NCBI GenBank assembly: GCA_025963465.1
Contig: JAOQAP010000268.1
Coordinates: 1 to 53,262 of the forward strand
Direction of reading: 5' to 3'
From: Flavipsychrobacter sp.
Lineage (GTDB): Bacteria > Bacteroidota > Bacteroidia > Chitinophagales > Chitinophagaceae
DNA: 53,262 nucleotides
Part shown: piece by piece, positions 30,560-47,873 of the stretch
How the letters are laid out: each line of letters starts with the position of its first letter
Numbering within the stretch: the first letter of the stretch is position 1
Notes under the pieces: model-generated
The model's database searches: none
What the model was told of the DNA's origin: nothing
What the model saw: the letters and a program-made list of their open reading frames with translations, nothing else
Made by a program: the position numbers and the translations under genes

Positions 30560-31585
30560 ATGAAAATGCCTAAACTGGAATTGAATAAAGAATACCTGGA
30601 AAAAGATGAAGCGAAAAATACGGAGCTGATAACACAGATACTTATAGAGCAGGAGAAGAAGAAATATGACCCTGACAAAGTATTAAGAATATTCCACCCG
30701 CAAACGCACGGAACTGTAAAAGGAGAATTCTATGTTCATGACGATATACCTGAACACCTGAAGGTGGGCCTGTTTAAGAAGGCAGGCACATACCAGGCAT
30801 ATATGCGTTTTTCAAATGGCAACGATAGGTTGCAGTCTGATGCAAAAAAAGGGTTTCGCGGAATAGCTATTAAATTATTAAATGTACCGGGAGAAAAGCT
30901 GATGGTCACTAAAGGGGACCAGGCACAAGACTTCCTGTTGTTCAGCACACCCACCATTACTCCTAAAAATGTGGAAGATAACCTGGGTGGCATAAGCTCT
31001 GTATATGGCGGCAAGCTAAAACTAATGGGATTTCTGATGAATCCGAAGCATTGGTATATTGTAAAGAACTCCATACTGAAACCAACACATTGTCCTAATA
31101 TACTGGAGATACCATTCTACAGCACCACACCATACCAGTATGGCACAGTAGGTACTGTAAAGTATGCTATGGTGCCGCGCGAACCTGCAGTATGCAAGAT
31201 GCCTGCAAAGCCATCAGAAACATTCATACGGGAAAGGCTTGCAGAAGATCTGAAAGTAAAAGAAGTATGGTACGATTTCAAGATACAGTTCCAGACAGAT
31301 GCCGATAAAATGCCTATGGAAGATACTTCTGTAGAATGGAAGTCACCGTTTACCACTATCGGATCGGTACGGATATTCCAACAAAGTGTTGGCGATCCGG
31401 CAACTTTTACATTTGAGGAGCAGCTGGTGTATAACATATGGCACAGCCTGCCTGAGCACAAGCCGATGGGTGGTGTGAACAGGTCGCGCAAGGCAGTGTA
31501 TGACCAGCTTGCCAAATACAGGCTGGAAAGAGACCGGGCAGCCACGCAAGCCAATACCGATGCTAAGTACATAAAGAAAAAGTGA
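30560..31585 (+). CDS. Catalase-fold hemoprotein 1 (catalase-related, allene-oxide-synthase-like distal site)
   Basis: 341 residues, much shorter than true catalase (about 480 or more). The distal site reads R43-I-F-H-P-Q-T49-H50, with His preceded by Thr, as in catalase-related coral allene oxide synthase (Thr66-His67), and not by Val as in catalase. FSNGN (about 75-79) lies where the catalase heme-pocket region is expected. The proximal heme ligand motif RxxxY is R310-KAV-Y314. From family knowledge it should bind heme and act on organic hydroperoxides more than on H2O2. The start is the ATG at 30560; a TTG at 30524 is unlikely. It opens a seven-gene cluster and has a paralogue six genes on. 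Confidence 0.82.
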   Translation: MKMPKLELNKEYLEKDEAKNTELITQILIEQEKKKYDPDKVLRIFHPQTHGTVKGEFYVHDDIPEHLKVGLFKKAGTYQAYMRFSNGNDRLQSDAKKGFRGIAIKLLNVPGEKLMVTKGDQAQDFLLFSTPTITPKNVEDNLGGISSVYGGKLKLMGFLMNPKHWYIVKNSILKPTHCPNILEIPFYSTTPYQYGTVGTVKYAMVPREPAVCKMPAKPSETFIRERLAEDLKVKEVWYDFKIQFQTDADKMPMEDTSVEWKSPFTTIGSVRIFQQSVGDPATFTFEEQLVYNIWHSLPEHKPMGGVNRSRKAVYDQLAKYRLERDRAATQANTDAKYIKKK

Positions 31586-31679
31586 TCCCTTTATAATAAG
31601 TTGTCTGTCAAAATCTTTCATTACAAAATATAATAATTGAGAAAAAAACCTTTTATTGTGTAAAATCACCTGAAACGTT

Positions 31680-33446
31680 ATGCCTGAAAACAATAACAAG
31701 CCCGGTTTTGATCGGCAGCCTATGGTCGGCTGGTTTGATGCAAAGCAATTGGCACATACCGGCTTGTATGCAGTCATCTCTTCGCTATTCGGTTCCTTTG
31801 CCGACAAGCGCGAAATGCTGGCAGCAGTAAATCCACCGAAATTCGATAATGACTACTCTGCAAATAAGGAAGTATGGATAGACTATATTTCTGATACAGG
31901 GGATGGCTTTGACTCCACTTATACCATGGCTACACTTGTGGCTAAAAAAAGCCTGAAAGTAGAAGGTGTCGACAAAGAACTGCCAAAACCCAAAGTGATC
32001 ATTTTTGGCGGTGACCAGGTATATCCTACCGCAAGCCGTGAGGAATATACAAACCGATTTACAGGGCCGTTCAGTGCAGCATCTCATGCAGAAGACCCGG
32101 ATGCTACAGAAGAGAATCATTTATATGCAGTGCCCGGCAACCATGACTGGTATGACGGGCTGACCAACTTTGGTAAGTTGTTCTTCCAGAGCAGGTCGAT
32201 AGGTAACTGGCGCACCAAACAGAACCGCAGCTACTTTGCGATAAAGGTTACGGCCAACACATGGATATGGGCGATAGACATACAGTTTGAAGCTGACATA
32301 GACTATCCGCAGCTGCAATATTTTGATGAGCTCATTATGAAAATGAACAAAGGCGACAAGGTCATTCTTTGTTCTGCAGAACCAAGCTGGATATATAGCG
32401 GATCAAGAAATGGCGATGTTAGCTATCATAATCTTTGCTTCTTTGAAACAAGATATTTCGGCGACCTGAAAAACCCCTCTTATAATGCATCTAAACAACT
32501 GGAACTTGTTGTTTCTCTTTCAGGCGACCTGCACCACTATAGCCGTTATGAACTAAAAGCCCCCAATGGCAAAAGCTACCATAAAATAACTGCAGGTGGT
32601 GGCGGTGCTTTTATGCACCCTACCCATAATCTGCCTGAAAAAATAGAAAAGGTTCGTGAAGGTGACTTTGATCTCAAGCAACGCTTTCCATCGCAGGCAG
32701 AATCGAAGAAAATGCTTTGGGGCAATATCATGTTCCCGATCAGCAATAAGCAGTTCGGTTCATTTATGGGCATGGTATATGCGCTGTTTGCATGGTTTGT
32801 GATCATATCAGGTGAAGTAGGTAACAATGATCTTGTAAAATTTATTGGCAACAATGGCATCAGTATGATCGGCAAGGTTGCAAAATTGTTCCTGCTTACG
32901 TTCTCGGTAAGTCCATCGTCTATTATTATCATAGTAGCGCTGATATTTGGTTTTGGTGCATTTTGTGATACTGCTTCAACCAAAAAGAAATGGGTAGGAA
33001 TAGTAGGTTATCTGCATGGTGCATGCCATGTGTTACTTTCCCTTAGTTTACTATGGCTATTTGTTTATGTAAATACCAACTGGCTTTTCCCCCTTATTCA
33101 TAATGCCGCTCCCTCATTCAAAGTAACAAGTCATAGCTGGATGCTGGCAGCAACATTATTGGAGATGGTAATAATTGGTGGCTACATGGGCGCGGTGCTG
33201 ATGGGTACCTACCTGATGATATGCAACCGCCTACTGAAGATACACGACAATGAAGCGTACTCGTCTCTGAAGATAGAAGGATGGAAAAATTTCATGCGCA
33301 TGCATTTCAAAGATGATGTGCTGACCATATACCCGGTTGGCCTTAAAAGATCGGCGCGCTGGAAATGGAACCAAACAAAATTCACAACCACAGATACGCT
33401 TGCTCCTGAACTCATAGAGCAACCGATAGTGATCAACTTAAAATAA
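31680..33446 (+). CDS. Membrane-anchored metallophosphoesterase
   Basis: 588 residues. The N-terminal two thirds hold calcineurin-type metal-binding motifs: FGGDQVYP (about 103-110), PGNHDWYDGL (about 150-159) and SGDLHHYSRY (about 283-292), while the usual DxH first motif is not apparent at the N-terminus, where YISDTGDGFDS may take its place. The last third has four or five transmembrane helices (about 355-555) and a basic C-terminal tail. There is no signal peptide, so the catalytic domain is probably cytoplasmic. The substrate is unknown. It is 94 bp after hemoprotein 1 and 7 bp before the GMC gene. Confidence 0.82.
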   Translation: MPENNNKPGFDRQPMVGWFDAKQLAHTGLYAVISSLFGSFADKREMLAAVNPPKFDNDYSANKEVWIDYISDTGDGFDSTYTMATLVAKKSLKVEGVDKELPKPKVIIFGGDQVYPTASREEYTNRFTGPFSAASHAEDPDATEENHLYAVPGNHDWYDGLTNFGKLFFQSRSIGNWRTKQNRSYFAIKVTANTWIWAIDIQFEADIDYPQLQYFDELIMKMNKGDKVILCSAEPSWIYSGSRNGDVSYHNLCFFETRYFGDLKNPSYNASKQLELVVSLSGDLHHYSRYELKAPNGKSYHKITAGGGGAFMHPTHNLPEKIEKVREGDFDLKQRFPSQAESKKMLWGNIMFPISNKQFGSFMGMVYALFAWFVIISGEVGNNDLVKFIGNNGISMIGKVAKLFLLTFSVSPSSIIIIVALIFGFGAFCDTASTKKKWVGIVGYLHGACHVLLSLSLLWLFVYVNTNWLFPLIHNAAPSFKVTSHSWMLAATLLEMVIIGGYMGAVLMGTYLMICNRLLKIHDNEAYSSLKIEGWKNFMRMHFKDDVLTIYPVGLKRSARWKWNQTKFTTTDTLAPELIEQPIVINLK

Positions 33447-33453
33447 AACGACC

Positions 33454-35808
33454 ATGGACTTCAAAAGATTATCATCACCCCTAGCCGACATGAAGAGCCA
33501 CTATGATGTAATAGTGATAGGCTCAGGCTACGGTGCAAGTATTGCTGCTTCCCGCTTATCAAGAGCAGGCAAGAAAGTATGTATGCTGGAAAGAGGTAAA
33601 GAATTCCTCCCAGGAGAATACCCCAATAAAACCGGGGAGGCAATGGCAGAAATGCAGGTAAATTCTGTAAAAGGACATGTTGGCTCTAAAACAGGATTAT
33701 ATGACTTTCATATAAATGACGAGATAAGCGTATTCCAGGGGTGCGGGCTTGGCGGCACATCACTCGTCAATGCCAATGTTTCTTTACCCCCGGAAGACCG
33801 TGTAATGCAGAGCCAGAGATGGCCTGCTGCCTTCAGAAGCGATATGCCGATATTCAAAAGGAACCTGGAGCGTGCATGGAATATGTTACAGCCCAATCCT
33901 TTTCCGGAAGGAAAGAACGGGTATGGCAAGTTGCCTAAAGCTGAGGCTATGAAAAAATCTGCTGCAGGTATGAATGTCCCTGTGCGCTATACAGATATTA
34001 ATGTACACTTTGAAGATAAAGTGAACGCTGCAGGTGTAAAACAACATAAGTGTGAACTATGTGGTGATTGTATGACGGGCTGTAACTACGGCGCGAAAAA
34101 TACCACACTGATGAACTATATACCCGATGCCCGGAATCATGGCGCGGAGATATTTACTATGGTATCTGTAAAATACGTGTCTAAAAATGCAGCGGGTAAA
34201 TGGGTAGCCCACTATAAAATACAAAATGCAGAGAGCGAAAAATTTCATGCACCTGAGCTATTTGTTTCAGCTGATATGCTGATAATAGGTGCAGGTTCAC
34301 TGGGCAGTACAGAAATACTCCTGCGCTCAAAAGCGAAGGGACTGAAGATATCAGAAAAGATAGGTGCAGGCTTCACCGGTAATGGCGATGTCCTAGGCTT
34401 TGGGTACAATGCAGATGTGCAGGTAAACACTGTAGGTTTTGGCAAGCACGCGCCGGGAGAAAAAACACCTGTAGGCCCATGTATCACATCTGTGATTGAT
34501 CTGCGAAATCAGCCCGTACTGGAAGACGGTATGGTGATAGAGGACGGTAATGTGCCAGGGCCTATGGCCAGCCTTATGACACCTACATTTCTTGCTATAT
34601 CCAAAATTTTCGGCAAGGATGAATCTGATAGCAATAAAATGGCGAAGAAGTGGCGTGAATGGGTGAGCTTTTTCCGCGGCCCGTATCATGGCGCTATAAA
34701 TAATACACAGGCCTTCCTCGTTATGACCCACGACGACGGCAAAGGACAAATGAAGCTGGAGAATGACCGCCTGAATATATCATGGCCCGGAGTGGGCAAG
34801 GAACCCATCTTTGAAAAAGTAGATGCCAACCTGAAGCGCGCAACAAAAGCAATAGGTGGCACCTACATACCTAACCCCAGCTGGACAAAAATGATGGACT
34901 ATGACCTTATGACTGTACACCCTCTTGGAGGTTGTATGATGGGTGATGATGCCGGAAAAGGTGTGGTGAACCACAAAGGAGAGGTATTCTCAGGCACCAG
35001 CGGAGAAGAAGTGCATAAAGGCCTTTATGTGTGCGATGGCGCCGTATTGCCACTGCCGCTTGGCGTTAATCCTCTTATCACTATATCTGCTGTGGCGGAA
35101 AGGACTTGTGAACTGATAGCTAAAGATTACGGCCTTACGATCGATTATGGCTACAGTGATTTCAAACAGGCTGATGCATCAGACAAAAAGCCCGGTGTAC
35201 AGTTTACTGAAACAATGAAAGGCTTCTGGAGCGTAAATGAAAAGGAAGATTTCGAGAAAGGACATGATGCAGGAAAGGACAGCGCTTCTGTACTGGAATT
35301 TACACTTACGGTAATATCTACCGATGTAGATGCTATGGTGCATGCAAAAGACCACCATGCCCAGCTGGCAGGTATCGTAAAGGCACCCGCACTTTCTTCT
35401 TTCCCGCTTACTGTAAGCGACGGTAAGTTCAATCTCTTTGTTGATGATACTGCACCGGTACCTACCAAGCTCATGAAGTATAGCATGGTAATGAATTCAG
35501 AAGAAGGCAAGCAATATTTCTTCTACGGTTATAAAGTAGTGCGTGACGATCCCGGTTTCGACCTTTGGAAAGATACCTGTACACTCTTCATCACCGTGCA
35601 TGAAGGCGCCAGCGAGCAATCTCCTGTGTTGGGCAAAGGTATACTGGTGATCGAAACCAAAGACTTTATTACCCAGATGGCAACAATGAAGGTATTGAAC
35701 GCATCATCCAAGCTACAGGAACTGAAAGTACTGACAGAATTCGGCACTTACTTTTCAGGTTCACTATTCCAAATTTATATAAAAGATAAACTGAAAGACC
35801 TGTTATGA
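33454..35808 (+). CDS. GMC oxidoreductase, cholesterol-oxidase-like, with extra C-terminal domain
   Basis: 784 residues. FAD-binding motif VIVIGSGYGASIAASRL, a cysteine cluster CELCGDCMTGCNYGAK typical of bacterial GMC proteins near cholesterol oxidase, GAGSLGSTEILLRS, and the C-terminal GMC signature VHPLGGCMMG with GAVLPLPLGVNPLITI. Residues about 590-784 form an additional beta-rich domain (LEFTLTVISTDVDAM, GKGILVIET) found in a subset of GMC proteins. The enzyme likely oxidises an alcohol, sterol or other lipid, with H2O2 as the by-product if oxygen is the acceptor. It is 7 bp after the phosphoesterase and overlaps the next gene by 4 bp (ATGA). Confidence 0.88.
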   Translation: MDFKRLSSPLADMKSHYDVIVIGSGYGASIAASRLSRAGKKVCMLERGKEFLPGEYPNKTGEAMAEMQVNSVKGHVGSKTGLYDFHINDEISVFQGCGLGGTSLVNANVSLPPEDRVMQSQRWPAAFRSDMPIFKRNLERAWNMLQPNPFPEGKNGYGKLPKAEAMKKSAAGMNVPVRYTDINVHFEDKVNAAGVKQHKCELCGDCMTGCNYGAKNTTLMNYIPDARNHGAEIFTMVSVKYVSKNAAGKWVAHYKIQNAESEKFHAPELFVSADMLIIGAGSLGSTEILLRSKAKGLKISEKIGAGFTGNGDVLGFGYNADVQVNTVGFGKHAPGEKTPVGPCITSVIDLRNQPVLEDGMVIEDGNVPGPMASLMTPTFLAISKIFGKDESDSNKMAKKWREWVSFFRGPYHGAINNTQAFLVMTHDDGKGQMKLENDRLNISWPGVGKEPIFEKVDANLKRATKAIGGTYIPNPSWTKMMDYDLMTVHPLGGCMMGDDAGKGVVNHKGEVFSGTSGEEVHKGLYVCDGAVLPLPLGVNPLITISAVAERTCELIAKDYGLTIDYGYSDFKQADASDKKPGVQFTETMKGFWSVNEKEDFEKGHDAGKDSASVLEFTLTVISTDVDAMVHAKDHHAQLAGIVKAPALSSFPLTVSDGKFNLFVDDTAPVPTKLMKYSMVMNSEEGKQYFFYGYKVVRDDPGFDLWKDTCTLFITVHEGASEQSPVLGKGILVIETKDFITQMATMKVLNASSKLQELKVLTEFGTYFSGSLFQIYIKDKLKDLL

Positions 35809-37079
35809 CATTACACGGAGCACTTTCCATCATCCTGAATATAAAACAGGGCATGAAGCCGCAGCTTATTAAAAAGCTGCAGGAAGTAGACAACGATGTC
35901 AACTTCAATTCCATTGTGCCTTTTAAAAAGATAAGCACAATACACTTTGCACGTTTCGTAGTTGCCGATTCAGATCCCAACCCACATGGTGCACCCATAC
36001 TGGACAGGCTTGTATTTACTACAAACTATGACCTTCCGGAAGAGAACCACATCAATGAGCTGGTAAAATACGCAGGCCCCGGCCTGTGGGATATATTCAG
36101 TATGTGTGATGGCTTTCTCACGGGCAGCTATGATTCAAAAAGGCTTGCAGACTTCCTGCATACCAATTCTAAGAAATCAGCTACGTTCTATGTAGGTGTA
36201 GGTAACAGATCGGTAACACAGATAACACAGGAGCATAAATTACGTAACGCCGTACAGGATTACCTGGACGAGCATTGCAGTGAACTCACTACTAAAGACG
36301 CTGCAACCATACGAAAATCGATAGTAAACCATGTAAATGGTATGCAGGAGTTTGCATGGGCGAGAACACCCGAGCCACCCGCATCATCTGCCTATAAGAT
36401 GACTCGCGGCCTGAAAATAGCAGGAGTACTGTTATTGCTCGTCATACTGTCTCCTATAATCATACCGTTCGTGCTTATCTGGTGGCTTATTATGCTGCTC
36501 ATTGAAATAAGCGAAAAAGATGTGCCTTGCAAATTAGATAAAGCACATGTACGCGCACTGGTAGAGCGGGAAAAAGCCATCGTGCAGACACAGTTCTCGG
36601 CTGTGGGCAACGTTAAGCCCGGCTGGTTCCGTTACCGGACCATGATGTTCCTGTTGACGCTAACTGATTTTCTTGCACCATACCTTTATACTAAGGGTAA
36701 GCTGTCTGGTATACCAACAGTGCACTTCGCACGCTGGCTCATTGTTAATGAAGGCAGGCAGATGATATTCCTCAGCAATTTTGACGGTAACTCAGAAGGT
36801 TACCTGCGCGACTTTATACATATCGCAGCAAAGCAGCTTACGCTTATGTTCACCCACACCATCGGCTATCCTAAAACAAGGTTGATGCTATTGGGCGGAG
36901 CAAAGGACGCAAAAGGATTTATGGAATGGGCCAGGGAAAAGCAGGTGATCACAAACGTATGGTATTCTGCATACCCTGATGTTTCAGTAAAAAATGTTTT
37001 TCACAATTCTCAGATACGCGATGGCTTTTACGGAGACATGACCGAAGAGCAGGCACGTAAATGGTTACAATTATTATAA
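35805..37079 (+). CDS. Duplicated alpha/beta protein with central transmembrane segment
   Basis: 424 residues. Two related domains flank a hydrophobic helix pair at about 205-232 (IAGVLLLLVILSPIIIPFVLIWWLIMLLIEI). Each domain has the motif (I/V)HFAR(F/W): residues 46-51 and 306-311, followed by a strand (LVFTTNYD, MIFLSNFDG) and a helix. The pattern resembles the ferredoxin-like alpha/beta barrel halves seen in DyP peroxidases and chlorite dismutases, but no heme-ligand His can be assigned with confidence. I do not recognise a named family. The gene overlaps the GMC gene (ATGA) and is 8 bp before the DyP gene, so an accessory role to these oxidoreductases is probable. Confidence 0.65.
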   Translation: MTLHGALSIILNIKQGMKPQLIKKLQEVDNDVNFNSIVPFKKISTIHFARFVVADSDPNPHGAPILDRLVFTTNYDLPEENHINELVKYAGPGLWDIFSMCDGFLTGSYDSKRLADFLHTNSKKSATFYVGVGNRSVTQITQEHKLRNAVQDYLDEHCSELTTKDAATIRKSIVNHVNGMQEFAWARTPEPPASSAYKMTRGLKIAGVLLLLVILSPIIIPFVLIWWLIMLLIEISEKDVPCKLDKAHVRALVEREKAIVQTQFSAVGNVKPGWFRYRTMMFLLTLTDFLAPYLYTKGKLSGIPTVHFARWLIVNEGRQMIFLSNFDGNSEGYLRDFIHIAAKQLTLMFTHTIGYPKTRLMLLGGAKDAKGFMEWAREKQVITNVWYSAYPDVSVKNVFHNSQIRDGFYGDMTEEQARKWLQLL

Positions 37080-37087
37080 GCAATATC

Positions 37088-38515
37088 ATGGAGCAAATAG
37101 AATTAAAAGATCTGCAGGGACTGATAGTAAGAGGCTACGCAGAACTACAGTCAGCCGCCTTTATGGTGCTTAAAGTAACTGATGCACCTGTATTTAAAAA
37201 ATGGTTGCAGCAGCATATAAATGAAGTAACTCCCGGTAATGTAAAGCCGACGGACACGGCTATGAATATCGCATTCACCTTTGCCGGCCTCAGGGCATTG
37301 GGACTCAACAAAGACAGCCTCGACAGCTTTCCGCTGGAATTTGAAGATGGCATGACGACAAGGCAAAAGCAGGCTTTGCTCGGCGACTTTGGGAACAGCG
37401 ATCCGGCTAACTGGCAATGGGGACAGAAAGGCAATGATGATACACACGTATTGCTAGCCTTATATGCCGCTAATATGCCCATGCTGGAAAGCTTATGCGC
37501 AACAGTAAAACAACAACTGGTGGGGCATTGCGCAGCAGAGGTAAAGATGCTGGACACGAGCAACCTTGTAAAACGTAAAGAACATTTCGGCTTTCATGAT
37601 GGTATAGCTCAGCCTACTATAGATGGGCTAAGCAGGAAAGACAGCCCGGAGAATACGGTAGCGGCAGGCGAGTTTATACTGGGCTACAAGAATGAGTATG
37701 GCCAATATGATTACAGCCCTGTAGTGCCTGGCGCAGCAGATAAAAACAATGTATTACCTGCATCTGACCAGGTAAGCGGCATGAAAGACCTGGGCAAAAA
37801 TGGTACTTACCTCGTATTCCGCCAGCTAGAACAGGATGTCCATAGCTTCTGGAACTACATGGACAAGAAGACCAAAAACGAGGACGGCAGCTGCAACCCT
37901 GAACAGATGGTAAAACTGGCCAGTAAAATGGTAGGCAGGTGGCCCAGCGGCGCTCCTTTAGCTTTGTCGCCAGACAAGGATAGTGAAACCATGGCCGATA
38001 TGGATAAGTTTGGCTACAGGCAAGGTGATGGCGATGGACTGAAATGTCCGTTCGCTTCCCACGTGCGCCGTACTAACCCGCGCGACTCTATAGACACAGA
38101 CAAAAAGACATCAATAAAGATCGCCAACAAACACCGCATCGTAAGACGTGGACGTTCCTACGGCTCACCTGTAGAGGAATCTATGGACCCTATGGACATT
38201 ATTAAATCGGATAACAAAGAAGGAACACGTGGCCTGCACTTTATCTGCTTCAATACCAATCTTACCCTGCAATTCGAATTCATACAAAATTTCTGGGTGA
38301 ATAATCCAAAATTCGGCGGGCTGTATGATGAGCGCGACCCGGTAATGGGCAACCATAGCCATCCTCTGGACTCAAGACAGAGTGGTACTTTCAGTGTAGA
38401 GAATCATCCTATCCGCAAACGTCATACAGACGTACCGGAGTTTGTTACAGTAAAGGGTGGCGCGTATTTCTTTTTACCGGGTATAAGGGCATTAACATTT
38501 TTAGCTTCAATATAA
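37088..38515 (+). CDS. DyP-type heme peroxidase
   Basis: 475 residues from the ATG at 37088 (an earlier ATG at 37061 lies inside the previous gene). The DyP signature GxxDG is seen as GFHDGIAQPTIDG (distal Asp near residue 169), and CPFASHVRRTNPRD contains the proximal heme-ligand His. RRGRSYG and FLPGI are further family marks. It oxidises organic substrates with H2O2 or organic peroxides. No Tat or other signal peptide is seen, so it is cytoplasmic or bound to its membrane-associated neighbours. Three bases separate it from hemoprotein 2. Confidence 0.92.
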   Translation: MEQIELKDLQGLIVRGYAELQSAAFMVLKVTDAPVFKKWLQQHINEVTPGNVKPTDTAMNIAFTFAGLRALGLNKDSLDSFPLEFEDGMTTRQKQALLGDFGNSDPANWQWGQKGNDDTHVLLALYAANMPMLESLCATVKQQLVGHCAAEVKMLDTSNLVKRKEHFGFHDGIAQPTIDGLSRKDSPENTVAAGEFILGYKNEYGQYDYSPVVPGAADKNNVLPASDQVSGMKDLGKNGTYLVFRQLEQDVHSFWNYMDKKTKNEDGSCNPEQMVKLASKMVGRWPSGAPLALSPDKDSETMADMDKFGYRQGDGDGLKCPFASHVRRTNPRDSIDTDKKTSIKIANKHRIVRRGRSYGSPVEESMDPMDIIKSDNKEGTRGLHFICFNTNLTLQFEFIQNFWVNNPKFGGLYDERDPVMGNHSHPLDSRQSGTFSVENHPIRKRHTDVPEFVTVKGGAYFFLPGIRALTFLASI

Positions 38516-38518
38516 ACG

Positions 38519-39511
38519 ATGGTCCAGGCAGAGATAGGCAGAGAGTACCCCGAAGAAGGCGAACAGGAAAGTATAAACGGCATTATAGAAAGTGTAAAAC
38601 GCAATCTGACGAGGGTATATAAAAAAGGGCATGAGAACAGGCAGTTCCATGCAAAGATGCATGCATGTATCAAAGGTACATTCCATATAGCCAATGATCT
38701 GCCTGCAGATATGCAGGTGGGCACCTTTGTAAGTGGAAAGAGCTATGATTGCTGGGTACGCCTGTCTAATGGCAATACAAGAGTAGTAGACGACAGGAAA
38801 GCCGACCTCAGGGGCTTTGCAATAAAAATAGCAGGTGTGCAGGGCGAACAGGTAGTAAAAGACATTTCCATGCCTGCTACGCATGATCTGTTACTGGTGA
38901 GCTATCCTACATTGTTGGCAGCAAGTATAAAAGATTTTAAGAAAAGTATAGATGCAATATGCAACGGTATTGGCGGGCTTATCCTGTTTACTATCAACCC
39001 GTTCAACTGGGGCATAGTAAAACGCACGCTTAACTCCATGAAAAAGCATGACAACCTGTTTGCCGTGCCTTACTGGAGCGTCACACCATATCGCTACGGC
39101 AATGGTAACAAAGCGATAAAATACAAGCTGGTACCTACAACTACTAATCTTACAAAACCTGCACATAAGCACGCTACCTTTTTACAGGATACCATAGTTG
39201 CAGACCTTGCCAAACAGGACATTACTTTCGACCTGATGGTGCAACTGCAACAGGACGCTGTCCTTGATCCCATGGAAGATCCTACAAAAGAATGGTCGGG
39301 CCCATTTACCAGGATCGGCACTTTAGTGTTACCAAAGCAACGGTTTGTACCCGCAGATACACAGGAATTTGGCGATAACCTCACCTACTCTCCATGGCAC
39401 TGCACAAAAGAGCATCAGCCATTGGGCGCTATCAACAGGGCGCGGAAAGCCACCTATGACGCAATAGCAAAATTTAGGATCGAACACAATAAAAAAACAA
39501 CTACATTATGA
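38519..39511 (+). CDS. Catalase-fold hemoprotein 2
   Basis: 330 residues, a paralogue of the protein at 30560-31585. The distal site aligns as R41-Q-F-H-A-K-M47-H48 with Met before the His in place of Thr, and C50 where the paralogue has Thr52. The heme pocket region WVRLSNGNTRV and the proximal motif R309-KAT-Y313 are conserved, as is the C-terminal pattern YSPWHCTKEHQPLGAINRAR. It should bind heme through Tyr313 and use hydroperoxides, perhaps with a different specificity from its paralogue. It is between the DyP gene (3-bp gap) and the small membrane protein (4-bp overlap). Confidence 0.82.
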   Translation: MVQAEIGREYPEEGEQESINGIIESVKRNLTRVYKKGHENRQFHAKMHACIKGTFHIANDLPADMQVGTFVSGKSYDCWVRLSNGNTRVVDDRKADLRGFAIKIAGVQGEQVVKDISMPATHDLLLVSYPTLLAASIKDFKKSIDAICNGIGGLILFTINPFNWGIVKRTLNSMKKHDNLFAVPYWSVTPYRYGNGNKAIKYKLVPTTTNLTKPAHKHATFLQDTIVADLAKQDITFDLMVQLQQDAVLDPMEDPTKEWSGPFTRIGTLVLPKQRFVPADTQEFGDNLTYSPWHCTKEHQPLGAINRARKATYDAIAKFRIEHNKKTTTL

Positions 39512-39894
39512 CATCAAAAAAATGGTTAACCGGATTTCTTGCGCTAAACTCCTTCATACAGATAGGCTTATTCTTTCTGCTTAAGCTGGACTTCCCGCTC
39601 GTAGAATCTTATCTGAAGATGGCAGGTTGTGATACAGCATATGTACTCAAGGAGTATTTCGCTTCAGCTATTATCATTATCGCACCTGCTGGCTTCCTGG
39701 CGAATATCTGGATCAATAGGGGACGGGCAGAAGGTGTCGTACTGGCAAAGTTCATAGGTGTCACCATGTTGCTGGCGGCTACAAATTTAGGCCTTAGCCT
39801 GCATCGTTTAGATCTTCCGGCCATGGACCTTGTGAGAAGCATACCTATCACGCTGCTGGCATTTATGCAGAAGAAACAACAACTTACCGCATAG
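39508..39894 (+). CDS. Small polytopic membrane protein
   Basis: 128 residues with about four hydrophobic segments (WLTGFLALNSFIQIGLFFLL, YFASAIIIIAPAGFLANIWI, AKFIGVTMLLAATNLGLSL, and a weak one at the end). Size and topology are like DoxX-type or DUF4345-like proteins but no signature is clear. It overlaps hemoprotein 2 by 4 bp and closes the cluster; it could tether the heme enzymes to the inner membrane. Confidence 0.6.
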   Translation: MTSKKWLTGFLALNSFIQIGLFFLLKLDFPLVESYLKMAGCDTAYVLKEYFASAIIIIAPAGFLANIWINRGRAEGVVLAKFIGVTMLLAATNLGLSLHRLDLPAMDLVRSIPITLLAFMQKKQQLTA

Positions 39895-39918: not shown

Positions 39919-39943
39919 TGGTGTTACAATTACTGTAGCACCA
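39919..39943. terminator. Hairpin between convergent genes
   Basis: TGGTGTTACA (39919-39928) pairs with TGTAGCACCA (39934-39943) with one G-U pair and loop ATTAC. It is followed within 6 bases by TTATTTT. It probably ends the redox cluster and the convergent gene ending at 39947. Confidence 0.55.
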
Positions 39944-41837: not shown

Positions 41838-42956
41838 ATGAGTATTAATAGAACATATGTCGGCGTTGCAATGCTGATCCTTGGTGCCGGAATGACTGTC
41901 ACCTCTTGTAAGAAAAAGAAAGATGTTGTGACTATCCCTGAATACACAGTACCGGCTACTTATAGCTTCGAAAATGTGGAATACACTGAAGCCTCTGGCA
42001 GGGTAAGCATGTGGGCAGGTCTCACAAGCTACCTGGGCAAATCGAGCAGTCGCAAGATAAGCCAGGATACAACTAACAACCTGTGGAACAATACCAACAG
42101 CTCGTTTACTGCAGAAATTAGTACTAATCTTCCTCATTCGACCAGTGCACTTAATGGATTTTCATTTAATATTTCAGGTAAAGTAAGCGATGCAGGCACA
42201 ATTAAGCAATACATCGACTCTATGGTTGCCATCAGCCAATTCTATACCGCAACTGCTTCACAGGGTGTTCCCGGCAAGATTGGAACCCGTATTGTTAACT
42301 ATTCGGGACTGGAATTTAACCAGCTGGTAGCTAAAGGACTTATGGGTGCATTACAAATGAACCAGGTGATCACTTACCTGGATAAAGCAGCAAAAGACGA
42401 CAATAGCACAGTTACTGCAGGTAGCGGTACTGCTATGCAACATGACTGGGACCTTGCATTTGGTTACGTTGGTCTTCCTACTGACTATGATAGCTCTAAG
42501 ACTTATGCATCCACAGAGGCTAACAGGCCGCTTGCAATTGGTGGCTATTTCAGGGAAAGGGGCCAATACATTAAGTCCGGTGGGATCGTTTTCGAAGCAT
42601 TCCGTAAAGGCCGTGCAGCAATAAATAATAAAGATTACACTAAACGTGATTCTGCAATTGCTACTATCAAGCTGAATATGGAGAAGATACTTGCAGCAGC
42701 AGCATATGCTTATATGGGCCTTTCACAGGGCAGTTCTGACCTGGCTACAAGGTTTCATGCCTTGTCTGAAGGAGCCGGTTTTGTGCTTGCATTGAAATTC
42801 CGTCCGTCAAACAGCCAATTAACAGCTGCTAACTACCTGACACTGCAGGAGATAGCTCAAACAAATTTCTATGTGTTAATAGCTGATGCTTCAAATACAA
42901 AAGTAAAACAGGCACAAACTATACTGTCAACAGCTTACGGACAATTGCAGCCCTGA
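41838..42956 (+). CDS. DUF4856 domain lipoprotein
   Basis: 372 residues. The signal peptide ends in a lipobox (MTVTSC, then KKKKD). The mature domain (YSFENVEYTEASGRVSMW, MQHDWDLAFGYVGLP, IKLNMEKILAAAAYAYMG, FHALSEGAGFVLALKF) fits DUF4856, an imelysin-like all-helical family common in Bacteroidota. DUF4856 genes are regularly found next to imelysin genes and are presumed to take part in iron or other metal handling at the outer membrane. A hairpin separates it from the imelysin gene. Confidence 0.85.
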   Translation: MSINRTYVGVAMLILGAGMTVTSCKKKKDVVTIPEYTVPATYSFENVEYTEASGRVSMWAGLTSYLGKSSSRKISQDTTNNLWNNTNSSFTAEISTNLPHSTSALNGFSFNISGKVSDAGTIKQYIDSMVAISQFYTATASQGVPGKIGTRIVNYSGLEFNQLVAKGLMGALQMNQVITYLDKAAKDDNSTVTAGSGTAMQHDWDLAFGYVGLPTDYDSSKTYASTEANRPLAIGGYFRERGQYIKSGGIVFEAFRKGRAAINNKDYTKRDSAIATIKLNMEKILAAAAYAYMGLSQGSSDLATRFHALSEGAGFVLALKFRPSNSQLTAANYLTLQEIAQTNFYVLIADASNTKVKQAQTILSTAYGQLQP

Positions 42957-42990
42957 TCTTAAATAAATAGACGTAATTTTGAAAAAAATT

Positions 42991-43027
42991 AAAGCAAGTG
43001 TCTAGATCAATTTTAGGCACTTGCTTT
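42991..43027 (+). terminator. Intra-operon hairpin
   Basis: A 14-bp stem (AAAGCAAGTGTCTA at 42991-43004 with TAGGCACTTGCTTT at 43014-43027, one G-U pair) lies between the DUF4856 and imelysin genes. There is no good T-run after it, so it may act as a partial terminator or as a 3' stabiliser that makes the first gene product more abundant. Confidence 0.6.
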
Positions 43028-43067
43028 CAATAATTTAGGCCGATACTCTATCAATAATAAATCAGTT

Positions 43068-44141
43068 ATGAATAAATATAAATTATTGACATTTTCGGTG
43101 CTGGCCGGTGTCTTTTTGTACGCCTGCAACAAGGACAAGGGGAATAGTACTCCTGCCTCAAATGACACCTTTAAGAAAAATATGCTTGTCAATTATGCAG
43201 ACACGCTTATTATGCCTGCATATGCAGATATGCAGTCTAAGCTGACCCTTCTTGAACAGTCGGCTGATAACTTTATTGCCGGTCCGTCATTGAGCACGCA
43301 ATCTGCATTAAGAGTGCAATTCAAAGATGCTTATATTTCTTTTGAAGGCATTTCTGCACTTTATTTCGGTCCCGGCTCTGCACTTCAACTCAACAATAAC
43401 CTCAACACATTCCCCACAAGCGCATCAAAAATTGAATCCGGTATACAAAGCGGCATTTATGATCTTACGCTCATCGGCGTGTCCGACAGTATCCAGGGAT
43501 TCCCTGCCTTAGATTATTTATTCTTTTCTTCCGATGCAGTTCAGAAGTTCACTGATGCTACTGCCACAAACAGGAAAAAATATGCTAAAGATATTATTAC
43601 CCGTATGAAGTTGCTTGTCACTAATACAGTTGCACAATGGAATAATGGCTATCGTGAAAGTTTCACTACCAATCTGCAAACCAATGTGGGCAGTTCTATT
43701 GGTAGTCTCATCAACCAGTTTTCTTTTGAAATGGACCTCCTTAAAGGTGCCCGCATCGGGTGGCCTCTAGGCAAACAATCAAACGGGATCATATTTGCCG
43801 ATAAATGTGAAGCATATTATTCCGGTATCACAAAAGATGTAGCTGTAGCTAATCTCACCAGTTTGAAAAAATATTATACAGGTGGAACAGGTAAGGGTAT
43901 TGACGACTATCTTGACCTGCTGGGTAAACAACAGCTCAATAGTGATGTACTTACCCAGTTCAATACTGCTCTTGCAGCGCTGCAGGCTATTCCTGACCCC
44001 ATGTCTGCAGCCTTTTCGGGTAGCACTGCCACTGTAGAAACCGCGTACCGCGAGGTACAGAAACTACTTACACTTATCAAAACTGATGTGGCATCAGCTA
44101 CTGCTGTACAGATAACCTATATGGACAATGACGGTGACTAA
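43068..44141 (+). CDS. Imelysin family lipoprotein (M75-like)
   Basis: 357 residues. Lipobox FLYAC followed by NKDKG. The helical imelysin fold is indicated by FKDAYISFEGISALYFGPGSAL, IQGFPALDYLFFSSD and SFEMDLLKGARIGWPLGK. Imelysin proteins (EfeO, ICMP and relatives) bind or process iron; the GxHxxE motif of the classic form is not clear here, so the metal site may differ. The next gene starts 14 bp before its stop. Confidence 0.85.
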   Translation: MNKYKLLTFSVLAGVFLYACNKDKGNSTPASNDTFKKNMLVNYADTLIMPAYADMQSKLTLLEQSADNFIAGPSLSTQSALRVQFKDAYISFEGISALYFGPGSALQLNNNLNTFPTSASKIESGIQSGIYDLTLIGVSDSIQGFPALDYLFFSSDAVQKFTDATATNRKKYAKDIITRMKLLVTNTVAQWNNGYRESFTTNLQTNVGSSIGSLINQFSFEMDLLKGARIGWPLGKQSNGIIFADKCEAYYSGITKDVAVANLTSLKKYYTGGTGKGIDDYLDLLGKQQLNSDVLTQFNTALAALQAIPDPMSAAFSGSTATVETAYREVQKLLTLIKTDVASATAVQITYMDNDGD

Positions 44142-45477
44142 GGAAACTGCCTGTCATAGACCGGTGCTTATTGCGCCGCTTATCACGTTCAGGATTGTTT
44201 TCGGTCTGCTGATGTTCATTAGCCTGCTTCGCTTTTGGTGGCGCGGATGGGTAGACACAGTATATATCAAGCCTCCTTTTCATTTTACCTACATGGGGTT
44301 TGAATGGGTACAGCCATTCGGTGCCACAGGCATGTATGTTCTTTTCGGCGTTATTATACTTAGTACATTGCTCATTACTGTCGGGCTATTTTATCGTCTT
44401 GCCGCTATTGTGTTCTTCCTTGGATTCACTTATGTGGAGCTTATTGATGTAACTACTTACCTCAATCATTATTATTTCATCAGCCTTGTTGCCTTTATTA
44501 TGATCTGGTTGCCCGCAGGTAGTGACTATTCCATTGATACATGGTTAAATCCAGGTAAAAGAAGAGAATTCGTGCCTGCATGGACGATCTGGATATTGCA
44601 GTTCCAGCTTGCCATAGTATATGTGTTTGCAGGGCTCGCCAAACTAAATACCGATTGGCTTATCCTCGCACAGCCTATGAAAACATGGTTGCCGGCGCGC
44701 AGCTACCTGCCGCTGGTAGGGCCATATATGTATCATGAGTGGGTTGCTTACCTGTTTTCCTGGTTTGGTGCGGTTTACGATTGTTTTATCGTCTTCTTTT
44801 TGCTGCAGAAGCGCACCCGGCCTTATGCATACCTGGCTGTACTCATATTTCATATTGCCACGGCTATTTTTTTCCCGGGCATTGGCCTGTTTCCATATGT
44901 AATGATCATAGCCACCACTATCTTTTTTTCAGGATCGTTTCATAAGCGGGTACTCGGCTTTATGCCTTTTTACAACCGCCAGGCACCTTATTTTCAAACA
45001 GGGGCATATGTATTCCGCCACAAAAAAATGATCACTATTGCCCTTTCCGTTTATATTTTTTTTCAACTGGTGGTACCGCTACGTTTTCTTCTATATCCCG
45101 GCCACTTGTTTTGGGGAGAGGAAGGATACCGGTTCTCATGGCGGGTAATGTTGATGGAAAAAGCAGGAACAGCTTATTTCACAGTAAAAGATAGCACCCA
45201 CACAAGGTTTACGCACATTAGCAATGCAGACTATCTGACAGAGCTCCAGGAAAAAATGATGAGCACACAACCTGATATGATTCTGAAATATGCTCACTAC
45301 CTTCGCACTCAGTTCGAACAAAAAGGATGGCAAAAGCCGGAAGTATATGCAGAGATATATGTAGCGCTCAACGGTAACCGATCACGTTTATTTATTGATT
45401 CCACAGTAAACCTGGCAGCACAACCTCTTAGCTGGCAACATTACAAATGGATACTTCCGTACAAACAGCAACAATGA
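44128..45477 (+). CDS. HTTM-domain membrane protein (vitamin K-dependent carboxylase-like)
   Basis: 449 residues. The N-terminal four-TM HTTM domain is shown by FRIVFGLLMFISLLRFWWRG, FHFTYMGFEWV, VELIDVTTYLNHYYFISL and the QLAIVYVFAGLAKLNTDWL motif, as in vitamin K-dependent gamma-carboxylase relatives. More helices (to residue about 330) and a soluble C-terminal domain follow. In Bacteroidota such proteins recur with DUF4856, imelysin and TonB receptor genes; the reaction is unknown. It overlaps both neighbours (14 bp and 4 bp). Confidence 0.85.
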   Translation: MTVTKETACHRPVLIAPLITFRIVFGLLMFISLLRFWWRGWVDTVYIKPPFHFTYMGFEWVQPFGATGMYVLFGVIILSTLLITVGLFYRLAAIVFFLGFTYVELIDVTTYLNHYYFISLVAFIMIWLPAGSDYSIDTWLNPGKRREFVPAWTIWILQFQLAIVYVFAGLAKLNTDWLILAQPMKTWLPARSYLPLVGPYMYHEWVAYLFSWFGAVYDCFIVFFLLQKRTRPYAYLAVLIFHIATAIFFPGIGLFPYVMIIATTIFFSGSFHKRVLGFMPFYNRQAPYFQTGAYVFRHKKMITIALSVYIFFQLVVPLRFLLYPGHLFWGEEGYRFSWRVMLMEKAGTAYFTVKDSTHTRFTHISNADYLTELQEKMMSTQPDMILKYAHYLRTQFEQKGWQKPEVYAEIYVALNGNRSRLFIDSTVNLAAQPLSWQHYKWILPYKQQQ

Positions 45478-47873
45478 GATTTTTAATACCATTTTTTGTA
45501 ACGATTCTTTTTCTAGGCATGAGCGCATCGGCCCAGCAATATGCTGTGGAGGGTTCTGTAAGGATAGGCAATGAGCCGGCAAGTGGCGCTACTGTTACCC
45601 TTGTGCCGGGAACTGTGCAAATGACCAACGAGAATGGTTTTTTCCGCTTCACTAAGCTCGCAAAGGGCAGCTATAAGCTTACCATCAGCTTTGCTGACTA
45701 CATCACATCTGAGTCCACTATCGAGGTTCCTTTACAGGCTGGCAGGCTGGATATAAAACTGAAACCAAAAGCCGTTGCCCTGAATGAAGTCATAGTGAAG
45801 AATGCAAGGTCAGAATCGGTATCGGGCAAATTGAGAGACGTAGAGGGTACTTCCATTTACGCAGGAAAGAAAACAGAGGTAATCAATCTGCGCAATCTCA
45901 ATGCCAACCTGGCCACTAATAATACAAGGCAGATCTATGCGCGTATTCCCGGGCTGAATATCTGGGAATATGATAACGGGGGACTACAACTCGGCATTGG
46001 TGGGCGTGGTCTTAGTCCCAACCGCTCTTCAAACTTCAATATCCGCCAGAACGGTTATGATATCAGTGCAGATGCACTTGGTTATCCGGAAAGCTATTAT
46101 ACCCCTTCATCTGAAGCGCTCGATCGTATCGAGATCATACGTGGCGCAGCCAGCCTGCAGTACGGCCCCCAGTTTGGCGGGTTGATCAATTTTATCATGA
46201 AAGACGGCCCTGCAGACAAACGATGTGAATTTACCACGCGGCAGACAGGCGGATCATTCGGATTCTTTAACTCGTTCAATAGCGTGGGTGGAACTATCGC
46301 AAAGAACAAATTGAATTACTACGCCTTCTATCAATTTAAACGTGGCGATAGCTGGCGGCCCAATAGCCACTACGACCAGCATAACGGATACGCACATCTT
46401 GCATACCAGGTAAATGATAAGATGAAGATCACAGGTGAATATACGCTGATGAGATACCTGGCGCAGCAGCCGGGAGGACTAACCGATGATTCATTTAAAG
46501 TAAACCCGTCGGGATCGACAAGGGCAAGGAACTGGTTTAAGGTAAACTGGAACCTGATCAGCCTGAACCTGGACTACAAATTCTCTGATTACAGCAAGTT
46601 GAATTGGCGCAGCTTTACCCTGCAGGGCGGCAGGGAGGCATTAGGTATATTGAACTATATCAACCGTCCTGATATTGGCGGCAATAGGGACCTTATGCAG
46701 GACCGCTACAGTAATTTTGGTTCAGAACTCCGATATATTCACCGCTATCATTTAATAAAGGACCAGTATAGCACTTTCCTTATAGGCACCCGTTGGTACC
46801 AGGGGCTTACCGATCGCAAACAAGGTGACGGCCCTGATGGGAACAAACCTGATTTTACATTTATCGGGCCAGAGCCAAATAAATCTAATTATCACTTCCC
46901 GGGTACTAACTTAGCTGCATTTGCAGAAAACATATTTCAGATCAACACACACTGGAGCATTACTCCCGGCATCCGTTTGGAGTATATCAATACAAAAGCC
47001 GACGGTTACTACTATAAGCAAAACGTATTTATAGCTAACGATAAAATATTCGAAACACTTAATAATCCACGTTCTTTTGCATTGCTGGGCATTGGTACTT
47101 CCTGGAAATTTAAAAACGGTGCTGAGCTGTACAGCAATATTTCTCAGAACTACCGTTCCATTAACTTTAATGACGTGCGTATTGTGAACACCAATGCCCG
47201 AGTAGATCCTGCCTTGCGCGATGAAACCGGATATAATATTGACCTGGGACTGCGGGGCTCTTACAAAGGATGGCTGTATGCGGACCTCAGCGCCTTCTAC
47301 CTGAAATATAATGACCGTATCGGATCGATCTTTACACGGGACAGCAACTTTATGACATACAGGCTCCGTACAAATGTTGCAGACAGCAGAAACGTAGGAC
47401 TTGAGGTATTGCTGGAAGGAGACATACTGAAAGCTATGACCCAGGGCAAGTCGAAGTACAAGCTGAATTTATACACCAATCTTTCTCTTATTGATGCACG
47501 CTATATCAATACAAAAAATACTGCCTTTGCTAATAAACTAGTAGAGAATGTACCACCTGTATTGTTCCGCACGGGTATCAGTTTTGGTAATCCCCGTTTC
47601 AATATAACATACCAGTTCTCCTACCAGGCAAAACAATATTCTGACGCCACTAATACCGAAATAACAGCTACCGCTGTAGACGGAGCAATATATGCATTCA
47701 GTGTTATGGACCTCAGTCTGAGCTATAACTGGAGAAAATTTACTTTTTACACGGGGGTCAACAATCTGTCAGATACCAAATATTTCACCCGTAGGGCCGA
47801 CGGCTACCCGGGCCCGGGCATCTTACCCGCTGACAAGCGGAATTTCTATGTCACAGTGCAGTTTAAGTTATAA
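45474..47873 (+). CDS. TonB-dependent receptor (FecA-like)
   Basis: 799 residues from the ATG at 45474, which overlaps the HTTM stop (ATGA); a longer frame to 45447 lacks a signal peptide at its start. Signal peptide (to about residue 22), a carboxypeptidase-regulatory-like beta domain (VEGSVRIGNEPASGATVTL), a plug domain (LRNLNANLATNNTRQIYARIPG, DRIEIIRGAASLQYGPQFGG), then a 22-strand barrel ending FYVTVQFKL. It imports a metal chelate or similar ligand using TonB energy. The operon partners point to iron. Confidence 0.92.
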   Translation: MRFLIPFFVTILFLGMSASAQQYAVEGSVRIGNEPASGATVTLVPGTVQMTNENGFFRFTKLAKGSYKLTISFADYITSESTIEVPLQAGRLDIKLKPKAVALNEVIVKNARSESVSGKLRDVEGTSIYAGKKTEVINLRNLNANLATNNTRQIYARIPGLNIWEYDNGGLQLGIGGRGLSPNRSSNFNIRQNGYDISADALGYPESYYTPSSEALDRIEIIRGAASLQYGPQFGGLINFIMKDGPADKRCEFTTRQTGGSFGFFNSFNSVGGTIAKNKLNYYAFYQFKRGDSWRPNSHYDQHNGYAHLAYQVNDKMKITGEYTLMRYLAQQPGGLTDDSFKVNPSGSTRARNWFKVNWNLISLNLDYKFSDYSKLNWRSFTLQGGREALGILNYINRPDIGGNRDLMQDRYSNFGSELRYIHRYHLIKDQYSTFLIGTRWYQGLTDRKQGDGPDGNKPDFTFIGPEPNKSNYHFPGTNLAAFAENIFQINTHWSITPGIRLEYINTKADGYYYKQNVFIANDKIFETLNNPRSFALLGIGTSWKFKNGAELYSNISQNYRSINFNDVRIVNTNARVDPALRDETGYNIDLGLRGSYKGWLYADLSAFYLKYNDRIGSIFTRDSNFMTYRLRTNVADSRNVGLEVLLEGDILKAMTQGKSKYKLNLYTNLSLIDARYINTKNTAFANKLVENVPPVLFRTGISFGNPRFNITYQFSYQAKQYSDATNTEITATAVDGAIYAFSVMDLSLSYNWRKFTFYTGVNNLSDTKYFTRRADGYPGPGILPADKRNFYVTVQFKL

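Follow-up and report, generated by a model that had tools for sequence, protein, structure and literature searches.

Two gene modules, one coupling a DyP peroxidase to an exchangeable second heme enzyme, joined in an operon-like cluster of Flavipsychrobacter

Background

Which genes of a bacterial redox cluster belong together, and what might they do? The question is raised by seven adjoining genes in a 53,262-nucleotide stretch from Flavipsychrobacter sp. (contig JAOQAP010000268.1 of assembly GCA_025963465.1; the whole stretch is hereafter the window), which encode two catalase-related hemoproteins, a DyP peroxidase, a GMC flavoprotein, a metallophosphoesterase and two further proteins. A preliminary description of this DNA took them for one self-contained pathway, which is partly right. 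The locus is composed of two separately conserved modules joined in an operon-like run, a metallophosphoesterase-GMC module and a module of DyP with a protein that we call DUF4. The seven genes are thus not one conserved set, both modules being present in 2 of 32 loci of DUF4 type. The association of DUF4 and DyP with a second heme enzyme, which is catalase-related in the window and a cytochrome P450 in other bacteria, is well supported.

Gene arrangement

The seven open reading frames (ORFs) occupy the + strand from 30560 to 39894, as first described, and the genes flanking them on either side are on the opposite strand. When re-derived, the gaps from gene 1 to gene 7 are 94, 7, -4, -19, 3 and -4 bp. 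The fourth becomes +8, the value originally given, with the DyP start at 37088, which is more likely than 37061 because it agrees with the start in the related locus L014 (compared loci carry L numbers).

30560..31585, +: gene 1, catA, catalase-related hemoprotein of 341 residues, paralogue of gene 6
31680..33446, +: gene 2, metallophosphoesterase with a C-terminal hydrophobic (membrane-like) region, from PF00149 and hydropathy
33454..35808, +: gene 3, GMC flavoprotein, cholesterol-oxidase-like, with a CX2CX2CX3C motif
34051..34083, +: codons of CELCGDCMTGC, GMC residues C200-C210, a ferredoxin-like four-cysteine motif
35805..37079, +: gene 4, DUF4, two homologous domains either side of a hydrophobic segment
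36423..36479, +: codons for DUF4 residues 207-225, its strongest hydrophobic stretch (mean Kyte-Doolittle score 2.96)
37088..38515, +: gene 5, DyP peroxidase (likely start; longer ORF from 37061)
38519..39511, +: gene 6, catB, catalase-related hemoprotein of 330 residues
39508..39894, +: gene 7, small membrane-like protein without family match
39919..39943, +: terminator-like hairpin 3' of gene 7, from a consensus scan

Genes 1, 4 and 7 have no match in Pfam or NCBIfam. Membrane involvement, proposed at the outset, is probable; instead of two membrane proteins, hydropathy gives three genes with membrane-like segments (2, 4 and 7), the phosphoesterase included. The consensus scan found 12 terminator-like sites in the region against 9.1 expected, and a scan for Bacteroidota-type promoter patterns a single match, outside the cluster, against 1.5 expected.

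DUF4, DyP and the second heme partner

The 32 DUF4-type loci comprise the window, L014, one locus from each of 20 genomes and 10 of 25 plasmid records, and span five phylum- or class-level groups, partly inferred. Every genome matched in the DUF4 profile samples gave one locus and none was excluded; L096, L099 and L155 are near copies, and L096 carries a broken DyP gene. Profiles of DUF4 matched 7 of 289 genomes in the class of a Hyphomicrobiales metagenome-assembled genome (MAG), 3 of 185 in the class of a Pseudomonas, 4 of 246 in the phylum of Lentzea and 6 of 149 in the phylum of an Acidobacteria MAG, these group names being inferred. Among the 25 plasmid records with a DUF4 match by tblastn, the 19 that were checked, mostly by coordinates, all show linkage to DyP; the other six are from Sulfitobacter.

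In all 32 loci DUF4 is accompanied by a same-strand DyP, either fused to it or no more than 1.5 kb away, and in 27 of them within 450 nt. Gene 5 passes the cut-offs of TIGR01413 and of both Pfam DyP domains and retains the GxxDG Asp (D180) and the proximal His (H334; numbering from 37061), and its matches in the PDB include D-type and other long DyPs. Across the loci, the catalytic Asp is found in 31 of 32 (one row is gapped) and the proximal His in every one; the DyP of L182 lacks the full GxxDG string, though its Asp aligns. Comparison of the DUF4 and DyP profiles gave nothing (probability 0.9%). The TxH in the second domain of DUF4 was considered as catalytic, but L014 has Gln there and the idea was dropped.

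A further heme partner lies within 3 kb in 22 of the 32 loci. It has a catalase fold in nine (window, L014, L152, L153, L154, L174, L177, L178 and, on the opposite strand, L185) and is a P450 in thirteen (L091, L092, L094, L100, L142, L147, L148, L150, L175, L181, L183, L184 and, on the opposite strand, L144); no locus has both. The closest coupling is seen on three alphaproteobacterial plasmids, hosted by Novosphingobium, Pararhizobium and Sulfitobacter (L091, L092, L094), where P450, DUF4 and DyP, in that order, form a single polypeptide of 1423-1620 residues; L175 encodes a fourth such polypeptide. Among the fusions is SARO_RS19865 of Novosphingobium aromaticivorans DSM 12444. DUF4, DyP and P450 are three consecutive genes in Skermanella, and genes for DyP, a catalase-family protein and a small DUF4-like protein stand side by side in Acinetobacter lwoffii, Rhodococcus koreensis and Rhizobium rosettiformans.

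The exchange of partners occurred repeatedly: among the 22 labelled rows of the DyP tree (32 rows, 16 of 29 inner branches well supported), at least three changes between catalase and P450 are needed. The DyPs of the window and L014 group with those of L174, L185 and L144 (93/86), and this group is nested in a larger one of 15 members with good support (100/99), which also holds the P450 fusions. Given the fusions and the partner exchange, DUF4, DyP and the second heme enzyme are likely to be linked both physically and functionally. The earlier idea that the three heme proteins work as one system is supported in part, in that they belong together, with the correction that other bacteria have a P450 in place of the catalase-like partner. 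The usual motif of the P450 I-helix is a D-T pair; in an alignment of eight P450 sequences its acidic residue is absent from six and kept in two.

Catalase-related proteins

The products of catA and catB are homologous (34% identity), and a profile built from both and the L014 protein matches the catalase-related protein 3e4w of M. avium (E 7e-10). Their catalase core, heme-binding Arg, proximal Tyr and distal His are those of catalase-related hemoproteins. To Pfam PF00199 (catalase), catB scores 20.8 bits, below the cut-off of 25, and catA has no match. Foldseek placed M. avium 3e4y/3e4w and the coral allene oxide synthase (AOS) 1u5u on top for a catB model of low confidence (mean predicted local distance difference test score, pLDDT, 53.5), with TM-scores of 0.40-0.47.

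In an alignment of 27 catalase-related sequences, R41, R309 and R320 align with Arg throughout, Y313 with Tyr in 26 and H44 with His in 22, and a further heme-Arg position, R98 of catB, is Arg in just 13; catA and catB retain all six residues. A monofunctional heme catalase has distal His and Asn and a proximal Tyr. In the window proteins H44 and Y313 are kept, and the position that we take to be that of the distal Asn, two before a conserved Pro, is by alignment Ser in catA, catB and a third copy from the same genome, and Thr in L014. The distal residues of coral AOS are given as T66 and N137 (PMC5617202); their positions, placed by spacing from the Arg and His as the coral protein is outside the alignment, hold Phe and Ser in both catA and catB.

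The third copy is on another contig (L137, G000:C101, 1-6748), where it adjoins a divergent patatin gene; this contig also bears a SnoaL-like ORF and a gene for a large protein-kinase/AAA/GAF protein. Catalase-related genes are present in 13 of 296 Bacteroidota genomes. In their tree the DyP-linked proteins do not form one clade, the placement of the long branches L154, L177, L146 and L103 being unsure.

Catalase-related domains were also met in other contexts. Proteins of 1061-1082 residues contain one and are followed by a flavoprotein (L138:5060-8275, L139:5193-8375, L140:7073-10318), and Pfam identifies LodA domains and a tryptophan-halogenase-type (LodB-like) partner in L138; such a LodA fusion is already published (PMC4417212). 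The distal His position is Phe in all three, so even these may not be catalases. On alphaproteobacterial plasmids, catalase-related proteins stand beside or are fused to animal-type heme peroxidases (L102:7929-10513, L103:7001-9829, L105:5434-8002), possibly as dioxygenase-plus-catalase pairs. In NGR234 (L101:7956-14009), a catalase-family gene is followed by a hypothetical gene, an annotated di-heme cytochrome c peroxidase gene and then a patatin gene.

These data bear on a main rival explanation, namely that the cluster is a peroxide-defence operon in which DyP and the two catalase-like proteins simply remove the H2O2 that the GMC protein forms as a by-product. Peroxides are consumed by catalase-fold and DyP proteins alike, H2O2-making oxidases of LodA type carry fused catalase-related domains, other catalase-family plasmid genes adjoin FdhF/YdeP genes (perhaps a stress context), and the protein occupying the same slot in L154 is nearer true catalases and therefore fits peroxide removal. 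Such a role does not predict, however, that the slot is taken by a P450 in 13 of the 22 loci with a third heme partner; P450s are not known to scavenge H2O2. Also at odds with it are the Ser and Phe residues of catA and catB at the distal Asn and coral Thr66 positions, the Phe of the LodA fusions and the 30 of 32 DUF4-DyP loci without a GMC gene within 6 kb. We consider peroxide defence unlikely.

The metallophosphoesterase-GMC module

Gene 2 scores 33.1 bits with Pfam metallophosphoesterase PF00149 (cut-off 21.5), and gene 3 exceeds the gathering scores of both GMC domains (PF00732, 50.1 vs 23; PF05199, 45.9 vs 24.6). The closest solved relatives of the GMC protein are cholesterol oxidases (E 1e-32), but with the cholesterol oxidase equivalog NF058674 it scores only 159.3 bits where 850 are required, and it extends about 230 residues past the GMC C domain.

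Its relatives were compared in 18 chosen loci, comprising 12 strong matches of 76 genome loci, two genome loci and 4 of 16 plasmid records; distant matches (L024, L026 and weaker) were left out. A GMC protein of each of the 18 loci contains CX2CX2CX3C, that of L097 being the second, more distant copy of its locus, and CELCGDCMTGC is invariant across three aligned rows. The motif resembles ferredoxin ligands, and Pfam Fer4_6 scores 16.3 bits on the window protein, under the cut-off of 25. With the four-cysteine motif, H2O2 release is not what would be expected by default, and the protein may not be a plain H2O2-making oxidase.

A phosphoesterase of the window's family adjoins GMC on the same strand in 6 of the 18 loci (L012, L013, L014, L018, L021, L098). 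In 12 of 18, GMC is fused to an alpha/beta hydrolase (Pfam check on L015). All six Pseudomonas loci have a RoxA-like protein beside the fusion, as judged by Pfam for L015, the one Pseudomonas locus tested, and a different metallophosphoesterase after it. Near the phosphoesterase-GMC pair of L012 are a patatin (Pfam), an acetoacetate-decarboxylase-family protein and a separate alpha/beta hydrolase, all with homologues in L018. For the GMC family this suggests an iron-sulfur branch, often hydrolase-fused, and enzymes annotated as oxidases may be dehydrogenases.

Occurrence of the full set

L014, a Bacteroidetes MAG locus found by GMC search of genome contigs, holds phosphoesterase, GMC, DUF4, DyP and one catalase-related gene in the order of the window. 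Its proteins share 49-74% identity with those of genes 2-6, its phosphoesterase being split over two frames, and its catalase-related gene is nearest to gene 6; gene 7 has no match there by tblastn. Blastp of ORFs of at least 100 residues from the 18.4 kb stretch of L014 detected no further gene in common with the window, barring a shadow ORF in GMC, and the set therefore seems to travel as a unit. In L014 the catalase-related gene is followed by two DUF2589 protein genes (L014:12638-13925).

The full set is rare, since in samples of the phylum close GMC kin were found in 3 of 148 genomes, the window's own included, and DUF4 turned up in a single genome of 296, that of the window. Eleven of 12 genomes with a related GMC are without DUF4, the exception being that of L014.

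The genes might in principle lie together by chance or hitch-hiking, with no cooperation. Catalase-related genes do occur apart from DyP in Bacteroidota, no DyP match was found beside them in eight fetched loci (L137-L141, L145, L146, L151), and L014 has a single one and no gene 7. Such an origin would, however, hardly produce DUF4 with DyP in 32 of 32 loci, four P450-DUF4-DyP polypeptides, or the order of genes 2-6 kept in L014 with nothing else shared; we reject it as highly improbable. The preliminary description had named its own refutation, an order unique to this genome or families that never co-occur; the neighbourhood search found neither, and a functional unit recurring in other genomes stands.

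Proposed function

We propose that DUF4 serves as a tether or docking protein at the inner membrane and would keep DyP beside a second peroxide-activating heme enzyme, a catalase-related hemoprotein here (with catA as an extra copy) and a P450 in other bacteria. The pair would act at the membrane on a hydrophobic substrate, possibly hydroperoxides. We favour such a substrate because of the one known metabolic role that catalase-related enzymes and P450s share, the hydrophobic parts of genes 2, 4 and 7 and the lipid-type hydrolases near GMC relatives; enzymes of both kinds convert fatty-acid hydroperoxides in other organisms (PMC5617202). The catalase-related enzyme might rearrange or cleave an organic hydroperoxide, or oxygenate with H2O2. 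With H2O2 as the peroxide, catB or P450 would be a peroxygenase, whereas a lipid hydroperoxide would make it an isomerase or lyase. DyP could perform a coupled one-electron oxidation or dispose of leftover peroxide. The membrane phosphoesterase may liberate or localise the substrate, and the flavin/iron-sulfur GMC enzyme would oxidise an alcohol or aldehyde, relaying electrons through its cluster.

Gene content, adjacency, the fusions, the exchange of partners, the conserved heme ligands and the Cys motif are observed; that DUF4 is a tether, which class of substrate is used, in what order the steps run, that GMC binds an iron-sulfur cluster and the chemistry as a whole are what we infer from them. 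The complete model, a membrane-tethered heme-enzyme pair on a hydrophobic substrate with the GMC-phosphoesterase module joined to it, is tentative, and we rate it slightly below an even chance. Oxylipin-like chemistry, suggested earlier, is no more than possible.

Several observations speak against the membrane-pair model. Ten of the 32 loci lack a third heme partner at up to 3 kb, contig ends cutting short some of the stretches (one of the ten, L180, has a P450 at 4.4 kb on the other strand), and GMC with phosphoesterase lies within 6 kb of DUF4-DyP just in the window and L014. The DUF4-DyP match spacing is 693-1453 nt in five loci (L094, a fusion; L096, with its broken gene; L150; L176; L179). 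Membrane tethering cannot be the rule throughout, as L153 and L154 encode small DUF4-like proteins that lack a hydrophobic segment. For DUF4 itself, AlphaFold2 modelling on an alignment of two rows gave an unusable structure (pLDDT 44.9). Active-site residues vary: the DyP distal-Arg position, chosen by eye, is Arg in only 15 of 32; among DyP-linked catalase-related proteins Asn replaces the distal His in L174 and L185, and Glu the proximal Tyr in L177; the L154 catalase belongs to another subfamily, nearer true catalases, with a weak match to catalase HPII; and the P450s of L183 and L184 retain the usual D-T pair. No known hydroperoxide-making dioxygenase was recognised in the cluster, and genome searches for lipoxygenase and animal peroxidase had no match, their controls being empty too, so that absence is not shown.

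Instead of a lipid, the substrate could be another hydrophobic compound (carotenoid, polyprenoid or aromatic) that is tailored or degraded with peroxide, with DyP as principal catalyst and a second step left to its heme partner. An exchangeable P450 suits tailoring chemistry, and the RoxA-like di-heme proteins beside the GMC-hydrolase fusion in all six Pseudomonas loci are of a rubber-oxygenase type. A class V DyP is reported to be active on beta-carotene (PMC8197335). Nevertheless, a Pfam scan of 12 flanking ORFs of the window revealed none from carotenoid, terpenoid or aromatic pathways, and lipid-type hydrolases are the commoner companions of GMC. This alternative, too, appears improbable to us.

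Returning to the membrane-associated heme pair, DUF4-DyP with its exchangeable second heme enzyme could represent a widely scattered bacterial heme-enzyme relay, its two peroxide-activating hemes kept side by side by a dedicated partner, for coupled two-step peroxygenation or hydroperoxide rearrangement, possible though somewhat doubtful. The relay might then be, with the same reserve, a bacterial analogue, made from other protein families, of the eukaryotic dioxygenase-P450 and lipoxygenase-catalase fusions. If so, bacteria would offer a further instance of an exchange familiar from oxylipin synthesis, in which plants use P450 (CYP74) and corals catalase-related enzymes for one and the same task (PMC5617202). 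The DUF4 partner, the fusions and the exchange offer a concrete handle on the physiological roles of many bacterial DyPs and of catalase-related proteins of y4iL type; in a natural P450-DUF4-DyP fusion, one enzyme's product should be readable.

Relation to known systems

We did not find the DUF4-DyP-catalase/P450 set or a DyP-P450 fusion described in the literature covered, most subscription journals being outside it. The catA and catB proteins share the catalase core and heme residues with coral AOS/hydroperoxide lyase, the 33-kDa protein of M. avium (3e4w) and the y4iL-like family (cd08152, named in PMC4417212). Unlike the coral type, they are not fused to lipoxygenase, have Ser at the distal Asn and Phe at T66, and neighbour DyP and DUF4. 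The polypeptides of L091, L092, L094 and L175 recall fungal dioxygenase/peroxidase-P450 fusions of linoleate diol synthase type (PMC4420034) in joining a heme peroxidase-type domain to a P450; yet their peroxidase is a DyP and not of the cyclooxygenase superfamily, the P450 comes first, DUF4 lies between, and the window has a catalase-like protein instead of P450.

By its family models, GxxDG Asp and proximal His, gene 5 resembles class V / D type DyPs, from which its genetic coupling to DUF4 sets it apart; the seven genes contain no EfeU/EfeO or encapsulin match. EfeUOB iron uptake was accordingly discarded, tat_substr_1 scoring 21.7 bits against 428. The GMC protein has the N and C domains of cholesterol oxidases and other GMC oxidoreductases, but differs in its low equivalog score, long C-terminal extension, CX2CX2CX3C motif and hydrolase-fused relatives. 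The Pseudomonas oleate 10S-dioxygenase/diol synthase are di-heme proteins acting on fatty acids (PMC4496055), and a RoxA-like cytochrome c protein adjoins GMC relatives in Pseudomonas. This likeness is one of type, and the window cluster lacks a di-heme protein.

Further observations

PADLOC anti-phage defence models gave no match to genes 2-7, and a PHROGs search with three proteins a single weak one (E 0.044). Gene 7 matches neither the small membrane proteins of L012 and L018 nor the N-terminus of the RoxA-like protein of L015. An endonuclease/exonuclease/phosphatase-family gene, perhaps replacing the metallophosphoesterase, follows DUF4-DyP in Rhizobium, Sinorhizobium and one other, probably alphaproteobacterial, genome (L099:14107-15303, L143:12560-13999, L155:9663-10793). 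In L185, probably from an acidobacterial genome, DyP-DUF4 has as neighbour a protein of 835 residues that matches cytochrome c weakly, under the cut-off (L185:4625-7129). Finally, beginning about 2 kb past the heme cluster, the + strand of the window carries in series genes for a DUF4856 protein, an imelysin, an HTTM/vitamin-K-gamma-carboxylase-like protein and a TonB receptor (41838-47873), which we take to be an iron-uptake-like set.

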